DNA of 64,000 nt, taken from contig NZ_JAALJI010000008.1 of the NCBI RefSeq assembly GCF_011064595.1, positions 124,001 to 188,000 of the forward strand. Direction: 5' to 3'. The notes below the pieces were generated by a model. That model was not told the DNA's origin and searched no databases. It worked only from the letters and a program-made list of their open reading frames with translations. Below, one piece after another: positions 9,588-33,381 of this stretch. The stretch's first letter is position 1. Each line of letters begins with the position of its first letter. The position numbers and the translations under genes were made by a program. This DNA is from Paludisphaera soli (GTDB taxonomy: Bacteria; Planctomycetota; Planctomycetia; Isosphaerales; Isosphaeraceae).

Positions 9588-11711
9588 TCACCCGGGCTTC
9601 CCGGCCGAGAGCGACGCGACGGCCGCCGCGGCCCCGACGACCGGCGCGCGGCAGGCGCGGGCCTCGCAATCGTAGAAGGTCACGCGGTCGTCGACGGCGG
9701 TGCGGTCCCGGAGGAGCGGGACGAGGTCGGCCAGGGCCTCGCGGCCTCCGGCCGGGGCCGGGGCGACGACGGCGTGGGGGAGGAACCGGCCGAAGGCGGC
9801 GTCGACAACGGCTTCGAACTCGCGGCGGTCGGCCCCGGCGACGATCGCCAGCTCCCGGCCCGGGGCGAGCGCGATGTCCAGTGCGATCAGGGTCTGGCCG
9901 CCGGCCGTCGGGGCCGATACGAGCACGGGCGCGGCGGCCTCGATCGCCTCGCGGCCGATCCGCTCGAAGTCCTCGCGGCCCGTCAAGGCGGCCAGGCGGA
10001 GCAGGGCGGTCGCCGCCATGCCGTTGCCCGAGGGGGTCGCGTCGTCGAACAGCCCCTTCTGGCGGGCGATGAGCGTCTCGTGACTCTTGCCGGTGAAGAA
10101 GAAGCCGCCGTGGGACTCGTCCAGGAACTCGGCGATCATAACCCCGGCCAGCTCCACGGCCGACGCGATCCAGCGTGCCGTGCCGGTGGCCTCGTAGAGG
10201 CGCGTGAGGCCGTCGATCAGGCAGGCGTAGTCGTCGAGGTAGGCGTCCAGCTTGGCCACCCCGTCCTTGGAGGTGTGCAGGAGCCGGCCGTCCGGGGCCC
10301 GCAGTCGGTCCAGCAGGAACGCCGAGGCGCGCTCGGCGGCCTCCAGGAAGCGAGGCTCGGCCAGAGCCCGGCCGGCCTGGGCCATCGCGGCGATGGCCAG
10401 GCCGTTCCACGAGACCAGCACCTTCGTGTCCTTGGCCGGGGCGACCCGGCGCTCGCGGACGGCCAGGAGCTTCGCTCGCGACTCGGCCAGCTCGATCTCC
10501 AGCTCCTCGGGGTCCCGCCTCAGGCCTTTGGCGGCCTCGGCGATCGACCGGGGGAGGTTCGGGACGTTCTTCCGATCCCAGTTCCCCTGGGCCGAGACGT
10601 CGTAGGTCAGCGCGAAGTTCCGCCCCTGCTCGACGCCCAGGACTTCCAGGACCTCGCCCAGCGACCAGACGTAGTACTTGCCCTCCTCGCCCTCGCTGTC
10701 GGCGTCCTCGGTCGAGTAGAAGGGGCCGTCGGGGTCGGTCATCCGGTCCAGAACGTAGTTCAGGGTATGCCGCGCGGTGCGGGCGAACGAGGCCTCGCCG
10801 GTCGCCTGGAAGGCCTCGACGTAGGCCGAGGCGAGCAGGGCGTTGTCGTACAGCATCTTCTCGAAGTGGGGGACCAGCCAGCGCTCGTCGGTCGAGTAGC
10901 GGGCGAAGCCCCCGCCCAGGTGGTCGTAGATCCCCCCTCGCGCCATCTTGCCCAGGGTGAGGGTCGCGGCGTGCAGGGCCTGGGCGTCGCCGGTGCGGGC
11001 GTACTGGCGGAGGAGCACCCGCAGGTTCATCGGGTTCGGGAACTTGGGTGCGCGACCGAAGCCGCCGTGCTGCGCGTCGAGCGAGTGGATCAAGGCCGTC
11101 GCCGCGTTGTCGAGCAGGCCCGTCGAGAGCGGTGCGGCGACGCCCTCGCGACGGCCGACGTCGGCCGCGTTGCGCAGGTGAGCCGTCATCTCGGCGGCCG
11201 ACTTGCGGATGTCCTCGCGGCGATCGGCCCAGGCCCGGTGGACGCTCAGGAGCACGCGGGGGAATCCCGGCATCCCGCGCGAGTCGGTGGGGGGGAAGTA
11301 GGTGCCGCCGTAGAAGGGCTCCAGCTCGGGCGTCAGGAAGACCGACATCGGCCAGCCGCCGTGGCCGGTCATCGCCTGCACGGCGTTCATGTAGATCTGG
11401 TCGAGGTCGGGGCGTTCCTCGCGGTCCACCTTGATGTTCACGAAGTGGGCGTTCATGATCCGGGCGATGTCCGGATTCTCGAAGCTCTCCCGTTCCATGA
11501 CGTGGCACCAGTGGCACGCCGAGTAGCCGATCGACAGGAAGATCGGCCGGTCCTCGGCCTTCGCCAGCGCGAGGGCCTCGGGCCCCCAGGGGAGCCAGTC
11601 CACCGGGTTCCGCGCATGCTGGAGCAGGTAGGGGCTGGTCTCGCCCGCCAGGCGGTTGGCGGGGCGGGAGGACGTTCCGACGCGATCGGGGCTTGCATGT
11701 GATGGCGACAT
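9588..11711 (-). CDS. DUF255/YyaL-family thioredoxin-domain protein
   Basis: 707 residues, full length for the YyaL/SPATA20 family. It opens with the family signature [21 protein letters not shown]; the thioredoxin-like domain has [16 protein letters not shown] (CHWCH at 66-70). From about residue 200 on it is an (alpha/alpha)6 barrel of the N-acylglucosamine 2-epimerase type, with [20 protein letters not shown] and [16 protein letters not shown]. The biochemical role of the family is unknown. The ATG at 11711 has no ribosome site and lies six bases after a near-consensus -10 element, so the mRNA may be leaderless. Confidence 0.93.
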
Positions 11712-17083: not shown

Positions 17084-18478
17084 TCAGCCCTCCTCCTCGA
17101 CGTCCGGGAAGCCCAGCTCCTTGAGGCGTCGGTAGAGTCTCGGCCGGGAGACGCCGAGGATCTCGGCGGCCCGCGACTTGTTCCGGCGGCAGCGCGCCAG
17201 GGCGTCCTCGATCAGCCGCCGCTCGACCTCGACCAGGGTCTCGTCGAGGGGACGGGGCGGGGCTGGTTTCGGGGCCGGGTAGGCGTCGCCCAGATGGCCC
17301 CGGATGTCGGCCGGCAGGTCTTCGACGACGATCAGGCTCGGGCCGCCCCGGCCGTGCGCGTGCTCGACGACCCGCGCCAGCTCGCGGAGGTTGCCCGGCC
17401 AGTGGTAGGCGGCCAGAATGTCCTCGGCGGCCCTCGCGAAGCCGGGGCGCTGGCGGCCTCCCCGGCGATTCAGGCGCTCCAGGAAGTTCTGGGCGAGCAG
17501 GGGGATGTCATCGCGGCGGTCGCGGAGCGGGGAGAGGTGGACGACCAGGACCGAGAGGGCCAGGTACAGGTCTTCCCGGAGGATCTCCGAGCGGACGGCG
17601 GCCTCGGGATCGCCGGTCGCCACGGCCAGGACCCGGACGCGGCCCTCGTCGCCCTCGAGCGCGGCGGCAAGCCTGGCCTGGAGGTCGCGCGGCAGGGCCG
17701 CGAGGTCGCCGACGAGGATCGACGAGCCGTCGGCCGCGGCGAGGCGGGGCCGCGAGGGGGGGGCCTCGGGATCGACCGGCCCGAATAGCTCGCGATCCAG
17801 GATCGCGGCGGGGAGGGCCTCGCAGTCGAAGGCGCGGAGGGTCGAGCCGTCGCCCGCCCCGAGCTGGTGCACGACGCGCGCGGCGTGCCGCTTGCCGACC
17901 CCGGGCTCGCCGACGAACAGGGTCGGCCGCCCCGACCCGGCGGCGACCCGGAGCTGCTCCAGCAGCCGGCGATGCGCCGGCCCGCCTCCCAGCAGGGAGT
18001 CGAAACCGTGGCGGGCCCGGAGCGCCGCACGCGCGTCCATCAGGCGGACGCGGAGGGCGTGGGCCTCCGATTCGGCCTCGGCCGGCGACGGCTCGGGCCG
18101 CGCGTCGGCGTCGAGCACCCGGCCCAGCACGCCGAGCAGTTCGCCCTGGGGGTCGCAAAACGGCAGGAAGGCCAGGACCCGTCGCACGCCCGCGCCGTCG
18201 GGACGGACGAGGAGCGAGGGGGCCCAGGAGGCACGCCCCGCGAGGGCCTCGGGCGGCGGCGCGAGGCCGGCCGCCAGTTCCACGACGTCCCCATCGCCCG
18301 ACGGCCCGTGAGCCGGGCAGGAGACGCCGACGATCGCATCGGCCGGAAACCCGGTCAGTTCCTCGAAGGCCGGGTTCACCCAGGCGACGCGGAGGTCCGG
18401 GTCGAGCCAAAACAGCGGCTCGCGCGCCGATCGCCAGATTTGTTCCGGGCGCAAGGGGGAGGGGCGGGGGGGCGGCAT
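17084..18478 (-). CDS. PAS-AAA+-Fis regulator, NtrC-like but without GAFTGA
   Basis: 464 residues. Residues about 12-125 form a PAS domain (PLFWLDPDLRVAWVNPAFEE), 160-400 an NtrC-type AAA+ module, and 420-460 a Fis-type helix-turn-helix (KSRAAEILGVSRPRLYRRLK). Walker A is intact (GEPGVGK, 190-196) and the sensor/arginine-finger region is present (LREDLYLALSV, PLRDRRDDIPLL). After ELFG (230-233) the GAFTGA loop that contacts sigma-54 is replaced by a Pro-rich stretch, and Walker B, normally LDE, reads VGD (256-258). It is therefore unlikely to open sigma-54 promoters and may hydrolyse ATP poorly; it probably acts as a DNA-binding switch. The ATG at 18478 lies 25 bases after the next regulator. 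Confidence 0.88.
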   Translation of the reverse strand: MPPPRPSPLRPEQIWRSAREPLFWLDPDLRVAWVNPAFEELTGFPADAIVGVSCPAHGPSGDGDVVELAAGLAPPPEALAGRASWAPSLLVRPDGAGVRRVLAFLPFCDPQGELLGVLGRVLDADARPEPSPAEAESEAHALRVRLMDARAALRARHGFDSLLGGGPAHRRLLEQLRVAAGSGRPTLFVGEPGVGKRHAARVVHQLGAGDGSTLRAFDCEALPAAILDRELFGPVDPEAPPSRPRLAAADGSSILVGDLAALPRDLQARLAAALEGDEGRVRVLAVATGDPEAAVRSEILREDLYLALSVLVVHLSPLRDRRDDIPLLAQNFLERLNRRGGRQRPGFARAAEDILAAYHWPGNLRELARVVEHAHGRGGPSLIVVEDLPADIRGHLGDAYPAPKPAPPRPLDETLVEVERRLIEDALARCRRNKSRAAEILGVSRPRLYRRLKELGFPDVEEEG

Positions 18479-30960: not shown

Positions 30961-31887
30961 TCAGGCGGGGCGGTCCACGGCGTCGGGGGCGACCGCCGGC
31001 GGGACGTCGGCGATCGGCGTCGGTGACGGCGGGGCGGCCGGCGTAGCGGTCGAGGAGGGGGCCGGGAACGCCGCGCGGGCGGGCGGCGCGACGGGCGGGA
31101 TCGTCCAGGGCGTGGCGCCGGGGGCCGGCGCGACGGCCGTCGCCGGGCGGCCCGCCTCGACGGCGCGGATGATGACCTCGGCCGCGATCTCCAGGCCGAG
31201 GCTGTTCGAGTCGAGCACCAGGTCGTAGTTGTGCGGGTCCGCGCAGTTGACCCGGTGCATCGTCCGTTCGAACGCCGCGCGGCGGGCGTCGAGGTCCTTG
31301 GCGGCCCGCCTGGCCGTCCGCGTCGAGACGCCCATGCGCTCGCCCAGCCGGGACGCTCGCGTCTTGAGCGGGGCGACGACCCGGACCGACAGCGTCGTCT
31401 CGCGGGGGAGCAGGAACCCGGCGCCGCGGCCGACCAGCACCGACTGCCCGGCCCGGCCGATCGCCTCCAGGAGCTTCGCCAGGTGGTCGAGGTAAGCTTC
31501 CTGGGGGGCGTAATGCTCCTCGCGGAGCGGCAGCAGCCAGTCCTGGATGACGCTGGGGGCCAGCTCGTCGAAGGTGCGGACCTCGTCGACCGTGGCCTGC
31601 ATCCGGTGGGCGATCGCCTCCAGCAGCTCGTGGTCGAACACCTTCCAGCCCAGCCGGCGGCCGACCATCCGCGCGATCGCGCCGCCGCCGGCGCCCGCCT
31701 CGCGGCTGATGCAGATGTTCTGGAACCGGGCCGAGCGGCCGGTGGTCAGGGGCAGCTCGCGCTCGTCCTCGCCCCAGCCCAGCAGCCAGCGGACGACCGA
31801 CCGGGGCCACTCTCCGAGCCCGCCCCAGCCCCGATCCGGGGCCGGCGTCTCCGACGTCGAGATCGAGAACGGTTCCCACGCGCCCAT
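30961..31887 (-). CDS. Cytidylate kinase-like family protein
   Basis: 308 residues from the ATG at 31887 (GGAGGA upstream). After a 60-residue variable head the core reads ICISREAGAGGGAIARMVG, the modified P-loop of the AAA_26/cytidylate kinase-like family, then GWKVFDHELLEAIA, VLVGRGAGFLLP, LSVRVVAPLKTR and NYDLVLDSNSLGLE. The family resembles nucleoside monophosphate kinases but its substrate is unproven. The last 60 residues are an Ala/Pro-rich tail. Single-gene unit facing the kinase cluster. Confidence 0.88.
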   Translation of the reverse strand: MGAWEPFSISTSETPAPDRGWGGLGEWPRSVVRWLLGWGEDERELPLTTGRSARFQNICISREAGAGGGAIARMVGRRLGWKVFDHELLEAIAHRMQATVDEVRTFDELAPSVIQDWLLPLREEHYAPQEAYLDHLAKLLEAIGRAGQSVLVGRGAGFLLPRETTLSVRVVAPLKTRASRLGERMGVSTRTARRAAKDLDARRAAFERTMHRVNCADPHNYDLVLDSNSLGLEIAAEVIIRAVEAGRPATAVAPAPGATPWTIPPVAPPARAAFPAPSSTATPAAPPSPTPIADVPPAVAPDAVDRPA

Positions 31888-32056
31888 GTCCGTTCCTCCA
31901 GCTGGGGAGCCCTGTCTTCCCGCCACTCTAGGGGATCGGAGGCCCCCCTGGAAAGACGTCACGCCCCCCGGCTCGCGTCGAGCCGCGCGGTCGTTCCGAC
32001 CGAAATCCCGCCCGGGTGTAACTCTTACAAGTCTGAAGGGGCGGACGCAACCCCTC

Positions 32057-32077
32057 GCGAAAATTGTCGATTTTCGC
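32057..32077. promoter_or_regulatory. Inverted repeat, candidate activator site for the sigma-54 promoter
   Basis: GCGAAAAT, 5 bases, ATTTTCGC: a perfect 8-base inverted repeat centred about 92 bases upstream of the transcription start predicted from the sigma-54 promoter at 32134. That distance is normal for enhancer-binding proteins. The rest of the 367-base gap (31888-32254) shows no gene. Confidence 0.5.
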
Positions 32078-32133
32078 TCAAGTTCCGAGCACGACCCAAT
32101 TTGAGCCAAGGCATCGACGACCTGCCCGGTGCC

Positions 32134-32147
32134 GGCACGCCGCTTGC
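32134..32147 (+). promoter_or_regulatory. Sigma-54 promoter of the 71-residue protein gene
   Basis: GGCACG-CCGC-TTGC, followed by TTTT, matches the -24/-12 consensus (TGGCACG-N4-TTGCW) at every position except the base before GG. GG and GC are ten bases apart. Transcription should start near 32159, about 96 bases before the ATG at 32255. Confidence 0.7.
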
Positions 32148-32254
32148 TTTTCAGGGGTGACGTCGGCGACGGCCGGAGGCGTCGGCGGCCCCCGCGGAGG
32201 CGGATCGGCCGCGTTCCCCGATCACGATGGACCCGGATGAAGGATCATTCCACG

Positions 32255-32470
32255 ATGAGAAATCGGCGACACACCCTCCTGTGGATGAAGGATTTGCTCG
32301 AGCACATGTCCCAGTGCCACGACCAGCTCCAGTGGGCCGAGGACGACCCGACCCAGTCCTTCCTGGCCGAGTCCCTCCTCGGCGACCTGGTCGAATGCCA
32401 GAAGCTCTGCCAGGAGCTGCGAGGCGACCCGAAGTCGCGCAAGGCCGCCCGCGAGCTGGCCCTGTCCTGA
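32255..32470 (+). CDS. Small conserved hypothetical protein (71 aa), sigma-54-controlled
   Basis: 71 residues from the ATG at 32255 (AAGGA nine bases upstream); an ATG six codons earlier at 32237 is possible but has a weak ribosome site. The protein is helical: HTLLWMKDLLEHMSQCHDQL, then WAEDDPTQSFLAESLLGDLVE and CQKLCQELRGDPKSRK. Two or three cysteines lie on the helices (MSQCHD, VECQKLC), which could be metal- or redox-active. It has its own sigma-54 promoter and its own terminator, so it is a monocistronic regulated gene. I believe related short proteins exist in planctomycetes; function unknown. Confidence 0.85.
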   Translation: MRNRRHTLLWMKDLLEHMSQCHDQLQWAEDDPTQSFLAESLLGDLVECQKLCQELRGDPKSRKAARELALS

Positions 32471-32482
32471 GCCCTCCGCGAC

Positions 32483-32519
32483 GTCCGCCGTGCCCGTTCG
32501 ACGCCGAACGGTGGCGGAC
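32483..32519 (+). terminator. Terminator hairpin after the 71-residue protein gene
   Basis: GTCCGCC pairs with GGCGGAC (outer 7 base pairs) and CCGTTC with GAACGG (inner 6), loop GACGCC, one small internal bulge. It starts 13 bases after the stop codon. No T-tract follows, as is usual in GC-rich genomes. Confidence 0.65.
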
Positions 32520-32595: not shown

Positions 32596-33381
32596 ATGAC
32601 GCCGCCCCACCCCGATCCGCTCGCCCGTTTCGCCGTCGATCAACTCCAGGTCCTGGTCTTCGAGGACCGCGGGCAAGCCGGCAGGGCGGCCGCCGGGGCC
32701 GTGGCCCACGCCATCGCCGATCGCTGCAAGGTCGCGGGCCGGGCGAACGTCGTCTTCGCCGCGGCCCCCAGCCAGAACGAGTTCCTCGCCGGCCTCGTCG
32801 CCGAGGAGATCGACTGGCCGCGCGTCGACGCCTTCCACATGGACGAGTATCTGGGCCTCTCCGGCGACCATCCCGCCTCATTCCGCCGCTACCTGTACGA
32901 GCATCTGTTCGGCCTCGTCGACCTGCACGCCCTCCACCTGATCCCCGGCGAGCAGACCGAGCGGCCCATGCTCGCCTGCCTAGCGTACGAGGATCTGCTC
33001 CTCGCCAACCCCACCGACGTCGTCTGCGCGGGGATCGGCGAGAACGGCCACCTGGCGTTCAACGACCCTCCGGTCGCCGACTTCCACGACCCGGTCCTCA
33101 TCAAGGTCGTCAAGCTCGACGAGCCCTGCCGCATCCAGCAGGTCCACGACGGCTGCTTCGAGCAACTCGACGACGTGCCCCGGCACGCCTACACGCTGAC
33201 CGTCCCCGCCTTGCTCCGCGCGCCGGTCGTCTCGGTGGTCGCCGTCGGGCCGAGGAAGGCCGAGGCCGTGCTGAGCACGCTCAAGGGCCCGATCGGCGAG
33301 GCCTGCCCCGCGACCGGCCTCCGCAGACACCCCGGCGCGGTCCTCTACCTGGACCGCGACGCCGCCAAGCTCGTCCTCTGA
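32596..33381 (+). CDS. nagB: Glucosamine-6-phosphate deaminase-like isomerase
   Basis: 261 residues, the usual NagB length. Sugar-phosphate isomerase motifs: VFAAAPSQNEFLAGL (phosphate loop), DAFHMDEYLGL with the catalytic Asp, and CAGIGENGHLAFNDP with the catalytic His; E. coli NagB has NDGHIAFNEP here. The GENGH variant is frequent in NagB-like proteins of environmental bacteria. It should convert glucosamine-6-phosphate to fructose-6-phosphate and ammonia, but a related isomerase role is possible. The FAH-family gene follows 64 bases later. Confidence 0.87.
   Translation: MTPPHPDPLARFAVDQLQVLVFEDRGQAGRAAAGAVAHAIADRCKVAGRANVVFAAAPSQNEFLAGLVAEEIDWPRVDAFHMDEYLGLSGDHPASFRRYLYEHLFGLVDLHALHLIPGEQTERPMLACLAYEDLLLANPTDVVCAGIGENGHLAFNDPPVADFHDPVLIKVVKLDEPCRIQQVHDGCFEQLDDVPRHAYTLTVPALLRAPVVSVVAVGPRKAEAVLSTLKGPIGEACPATGLRRHPGAVLYLDRDAAKLVL

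Follow-up and report, generated by a model that had tools for sequence, protein, structure and literature searches.

Genes and features of the locus

The window, by which we mean the whole 64,000-nucleotide stretch of DNA analysed here (G000:C176:124001-188000), comes from a planctomycete that can be placed in the Isosphaeraceae group by its named relatives, Singulisphaera acidiphila, Aquisphaera insulae and Tautonia sociabilis. It contains a 71-codon open reading frame on the forward strand (32255..32470, stop codon included), the product of which belongs to a conserved family. When relatives are compared, differences are fewest at second codon positions and most frequent at third positions, a pattern that identifies the frame as coding, as an earlier note on this DNA had proposed for a 71-residue gene at this place. 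The start codon is preceded by the ribosome-binding site AAGGA (32240..32244, forward strand), which is embedded in a sequence that relatives share (GAAGGATC..TCCACG ATG).

On the upstream side lies a divergent Cytidylate_kin2 gene (30961..31887, reverse strand), and downstream a Glucosamine_iso (PF01182) gene (32596..33381, forward strand). Both are outside the unit, and an operon with them was rejected since they are conserved as neighbours in Isosphaeraceae only and one of them is divergent. With this arrangement the gene looks monocistronic in Isosphaeraceae, which agrees with the earlier note; in some other families, a gene for a YTV-repeat protein follows it on the same strand.

The earlier note had also described a strong hairpin terminator. 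A hairpin does exist after the gene (at about 32483..32519, forward strand), but at most as a weak terminator candidate: a T run is lacking, the folding of the region is not better than that of its shuffles (z -1.18), and the terminator scan did not call it. A role as intrinsic terminator is thus unsupported. The search for structured RNA gave no Rfam match.

A family of small helical proteins

Relatives of the small protein were found in 36 of the 45 genomes of the order, and orthologues in 77 of 397 genomes across the class Planctomycetia (76 by profile at a stricter E-value). No Pfam or NCBIfam model matches the protein above its curated cut-off, and the relatives produce only scattered weak Pfam matches. 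We treat the protein as an undescribed and previously unnamed small helical protein of planctomycetes. Within the family, M1 is invariant and R4, D13, L37, D44, L45 and C52 are nearly so. AlphaFold2 predicts a helical hairpin with confidence (mean pLDDT 86; helices 2-27 and 31-56), which is in line with the helical protein that had been anticipated from the sequence. The protein is probably cytoplasmic, because it has no evident signal peptide.

A Foldseek search with the predicted model returned nothing below E 0.001. The top matches were generic hairpins, and encapsulated ferritins ranked near the head of the list. The two antiparallel helices of the model also occur in EncFtn (Rru_A0973) and similar helical hairpins, with Z values in a range that is common for such folds. 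However, EncFtn carries an E62/H65 metal site in helix 2, whereas this site is missing from the small protein, which has no conserved histidine there, and a ferritin-like function was rejected on these grounds. An EnvZ-like similarity in the profile search was dismissed as not significant (E 0.05).

A conserved sigma-54 promoter

Upstream of the gene lies a -24/-12 promoter of the sigma-54 type, CGGCACG-CCGC-TTGCT (32133..32148, forward strand), which was recognized by motif match plus conservation in orthologues. Like the pattern TGGCAYR-N4-TTGCW it has GG and GC at the fixed spacing. It differs by one mismatch from TGGCACG-N4-TTGCW and ranks first among the four matches that the window contains. 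Since about 4.3 promoter matches with up to two mismatches are expected in the window by chance, the scan alone proves little. To the comparison with relatives we could bring 70 loci, collected and oriented, 69 of which had a usable orthologue. A sigma-54 element scoring 9-12 of 12 was present within 200 nucleotides of the start codon in 68 of these 69. In 2002 control windows the mode was 7 among those that scored, and 6 windows reached 10; in shuffles and control windows alike, the scores peaked at 6-7 and rarely came to 9.

Because of this conservation in orthologues, we accept the promoter as real, and because the neighbouring genes differ between families, we assign it to the small gene. 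The earlier note had named absence of the element from relatives as a possible refutation, and its promoter has come through that comparison. Control of the small helical protein by sigma-54, as predicted from the DNA, has strong support from this conservation. From the usual spacing to the -24/-12 element, transcription would start near 32159.

The enhancer and a second conserved element

Promoters of the NtrC type combine a -24/-12 element with a dyad about 100 bases upstream and depend on enhancer-binding proteins (EBPs); all three, including EBP genes in the genome, are found here. As judged from sequence comparison, the conserved enhancer (upstream activating sequence) is the dyad TTGYAA-N3-TTRCAA, which reads GTGTAACTCTTACAA in the window (32016..32030, no strand assigned), 117 bases above the -24 box. 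Its distance from this box is nearly constant in Isosphaeraceae, at 110-118 bases, and thus falls within the roughly 80-150 bases above the promoter expected of an activator dyad. An unsupervised search for motifs, restricted to the other families, rediscovered the same motif (score 169.8 versus 66.3 for shuffled sequences), although outside Isosphaeraceae the enhancer is weaker and reaches the strict threshold in 19 of 33 loci. The core TGTAA-N3-TTACA occurs a single time in the genome. Allowing up to one mismatch, this genome has eight loci with an enhancer site, and three of them have a sigma-54 promoter 67-141 bases away: the small gene, a YTV gene and a lipoprotein-like gene. The motif differs from those of NtrC-type systems in that it could not be matched to any described EBP site.

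This enhancer lies about 40 bases upstream of the dyad to which the earlier note had given the same role. That dyad, GCGAAAAT/ATTTTCGC (32057..32077, no strand assigned), does exist: it is exact, unique in the genome and plausibly distant from the promoter, as would suit the enhancer of a gene that responds to stress or nutrients. Its left arm, however, already decays among congeners, while other families too have kept TTGYAA-N3-TTRCAA, and no stress or nutrient gene is linked to the dyad. We find this reading hardly credible. The dyad was probably wrongly taken for the enhancer, and the proposed stress or nutrient response is unsupported, the comparative evidence pointing instead to the cell wall through the YTV protein (see below).

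The right arm of the GCGAAAAT/ATTTTCGC dyad belongs to another conserved element, ATTTTYNCTCAAGTT (32070..32084, forward strand), which is found in Isosphaeraceae only and sits between enhancer and promoter at a nearly fixed distance (loci L002-L036). A DNA-bending site and a second promoter are candidate roles. In the latter case, the small gene would be transcribed mainly from a non-sigma-54 promoter at the CTCAAGTT element, with sigma-54 as a conditional extra input. The near-fixed position of ATTTTYNCTCAAGTT in Isosphaeraceae and a weakly conserved TT about 24 bases further on would fit such a promoter, but there is no clear -10 box, and neither the other families nor genus g14 show the element, although they keep the sigma-54 element; we regard a main promoter at this site as very unlikely. 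The YTV gene, too, has a similar sequence, CTAAAGTC, downstream of its sigma-54 promoter.

Recurrence of the enhancer-promoter pair before YTV genes

YTV proteins are cysteine-rich and have been reported in planctomycete cell-wall preparations (PMC8567305; see also PMC10632474). When the 45 genomes were searched with a pattern of enhancer plus promoter, the hits fell almost only on the small gene; the one extra match lay before a YTV-repeat gene in a genome of the same genus. In the genome of the window itself, the YTV gene is preceded by a sigma-54 promoter, with about 345 bases from the -24 box to the start codon, and by two perfect enhancer sites in tandem, which are separated by 27 bases (L191 upstream; L112 1464-1620), and the small gene and the YTV gene of this genome thus share the pair.

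With a strict threshold (enhancer and promoter scores both at least 10), the pair was detected before a YTV-repeat (PF07639) gene in 16 of the 32 Isosphaeraceae genomes that have the small gene, representing 9 of 16 genera, and in none of the 8 that lack it. Random windows, mostly from other families, contained the pair in 36 of 4000 cases (0.9%). In the other half of the genomes with the small gene, the YTV upstream region stays below this threshold. Three threshold pairs were tried, giving 16, 19 and 22 of 32 versus 0, 0 and 1 of 8, with a relaxed consensus and thresholds that were set after the sites had been seen and with upstream regions that were not all of one length. Upstream of the YTV gene, a sigma-54 score of 10 or more was obtained in 22 of 32 genomes with the small gene versus 1 of 8 without it (Fisher p 0.006, which overstates the evidence because the latter group is small and clustered, four of its genomes being of one genus and G017 and G027 being incomplete). 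Genomes G012, G015 and G033-G036 lack both the small gene and an enhancer-sigma-54 pair before the YTV gene. Because of the post hoc thresholds, the unequal region lengths and the incomplete and clustered genomes, we call a joint loss of the small gene and the YTV enhancer-promoter pair suggestive.

Outside Isosphaeraceae, the association takes a different form. Of 33 loci, 13 have a YTV gene just downstream of the small gene and in the same orientation, with no strong sigma-54 element between the two. The genes for YTV wall proteins thus resemble the small gene in often having the same enhancer-promoter pair, and are its neighbours in some families. The proteins themselves differ: YTV repeats and an evident signal peptide are absent from the small protein, which also contains few cysteines.

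In the collection of papers that we searched, there was nothing on YTV promoters. A survey of sigma-54 promoters in Planctomycetia predicted control of envelope, signalling and csrA genes and does not mention YTV genes in its main text (PMC12316311). How planctomycetes control their unusual protein-containing wall is, to our knowledge, poorly known. The Pirellula survey of Studholme and Dixon from 2004 reportedly predicted sigma-54 control of envelope, signalling and csrA genes as well.

A proposed sigma-54 regulon

We propose a sigma-54 regulon that would link the small helical-hairpin protein with a YTV cell-wall protein, and give this reading a probability of about two in three. What can be read directly from the DNA are the promoter and enhancer with their conservation, and the fact that the pair recurs upstream of YTV genes; from these we infer binding, looping, a shared activator and co-transcription. 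An enhancer-binding protein would bind the TTGYAA-N3-TTRCAA dyad at 32016-32030, and looping of the DNA would bring it to the sigma-54 RNA polymerase waiting at 32133-32148, which would then be opened so that the 71-codon gene is transcribed. The YTV-repeat cell-wall gene is probably under the control of this activator and sigma factor as well. In Isosphaeraceae, this gene would be a separate unit with its own enhancer or enhancers and promoter, and in some other families, where it follows the small gene, it may share the promoter of the latter. The small protein, to guess from the association, is most likely a partner or regulator that is made together with the wall protein.

Alternatively, sigma-54 and the TTGYAA enhancer might drive the small gene in the service of another process, the YTV link being coincidental or indirect and several activators recognizing a similar site. 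YTV genes do persist in genomes without the small gene, the full pair is missing from many YTV upstream regions, and a similar site with a strong sigma-54 promoter is found beside an unrelated EBP gene and a lipoprotein-like gene. Against it stand the pair rate of 50% before YTV genes versus 0.9% in random windows, the absence of the pair from genomes without the small gene, and the YTV genes that adjoin the small gene in other families. On balance we think this alternative unlikely.

The regulon reading can also be made more specific: one dedicated sigma-54 activator might run a wall regulon with the YTV protein and the hairpin protein at its core, the latter acting in the cytoplasm on the synthesis or secretion of wall proteins, as a feedback partner or chaperone. 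This version we offer tentatively, as a possibility that we would at present bet against. The pair that is common to the small gene and the YTV gene suggests a shared control circuit for the protein-containing wall. If the regulon is real, its enhancer sequence is now specified, two linked targets and a new family of small proteins are available for testing, and the activator becomes findable.

Candidates for the activator

The genome contains 12 strong PF00158 genes for enhancer-binding proteins. The activator is probably among these roughly twelve EBPs, although our search did not single out a cognate one. The earlier note had suggested looking for an EBP gene near the orthologues, and this yielded little: in 20 loci of up to 20 kb, there was only one such gene, 7 kb away. 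In the window, a PF00158-like AAA ATPase match at about 17540-17983 on the minus strand is weak (56 bits) and probably represents no true EBP.

One EBP gene of the GAF-AAA-HTH type (G000:C154:39653-41221) is adjoined by a matching site and a sigma-54 promoter. As a general activator it was rejected because it is patchy, with clear orthologues in only about 10 of 45 genomes, and because its site is not conserved. The gene (L118 about 9651-11222 on the same contig, G000:C154) is divergent from the lipoprotein-like gene, which has a strong sigma-54 promoter (TGGCACTCGGCTTGCT; L079 2681-2763). The TTGCAA site adjoining this promoter is not kept in orthologues, and the TGGCACTCGGCTTGCT promoter itself is kept in several of them.
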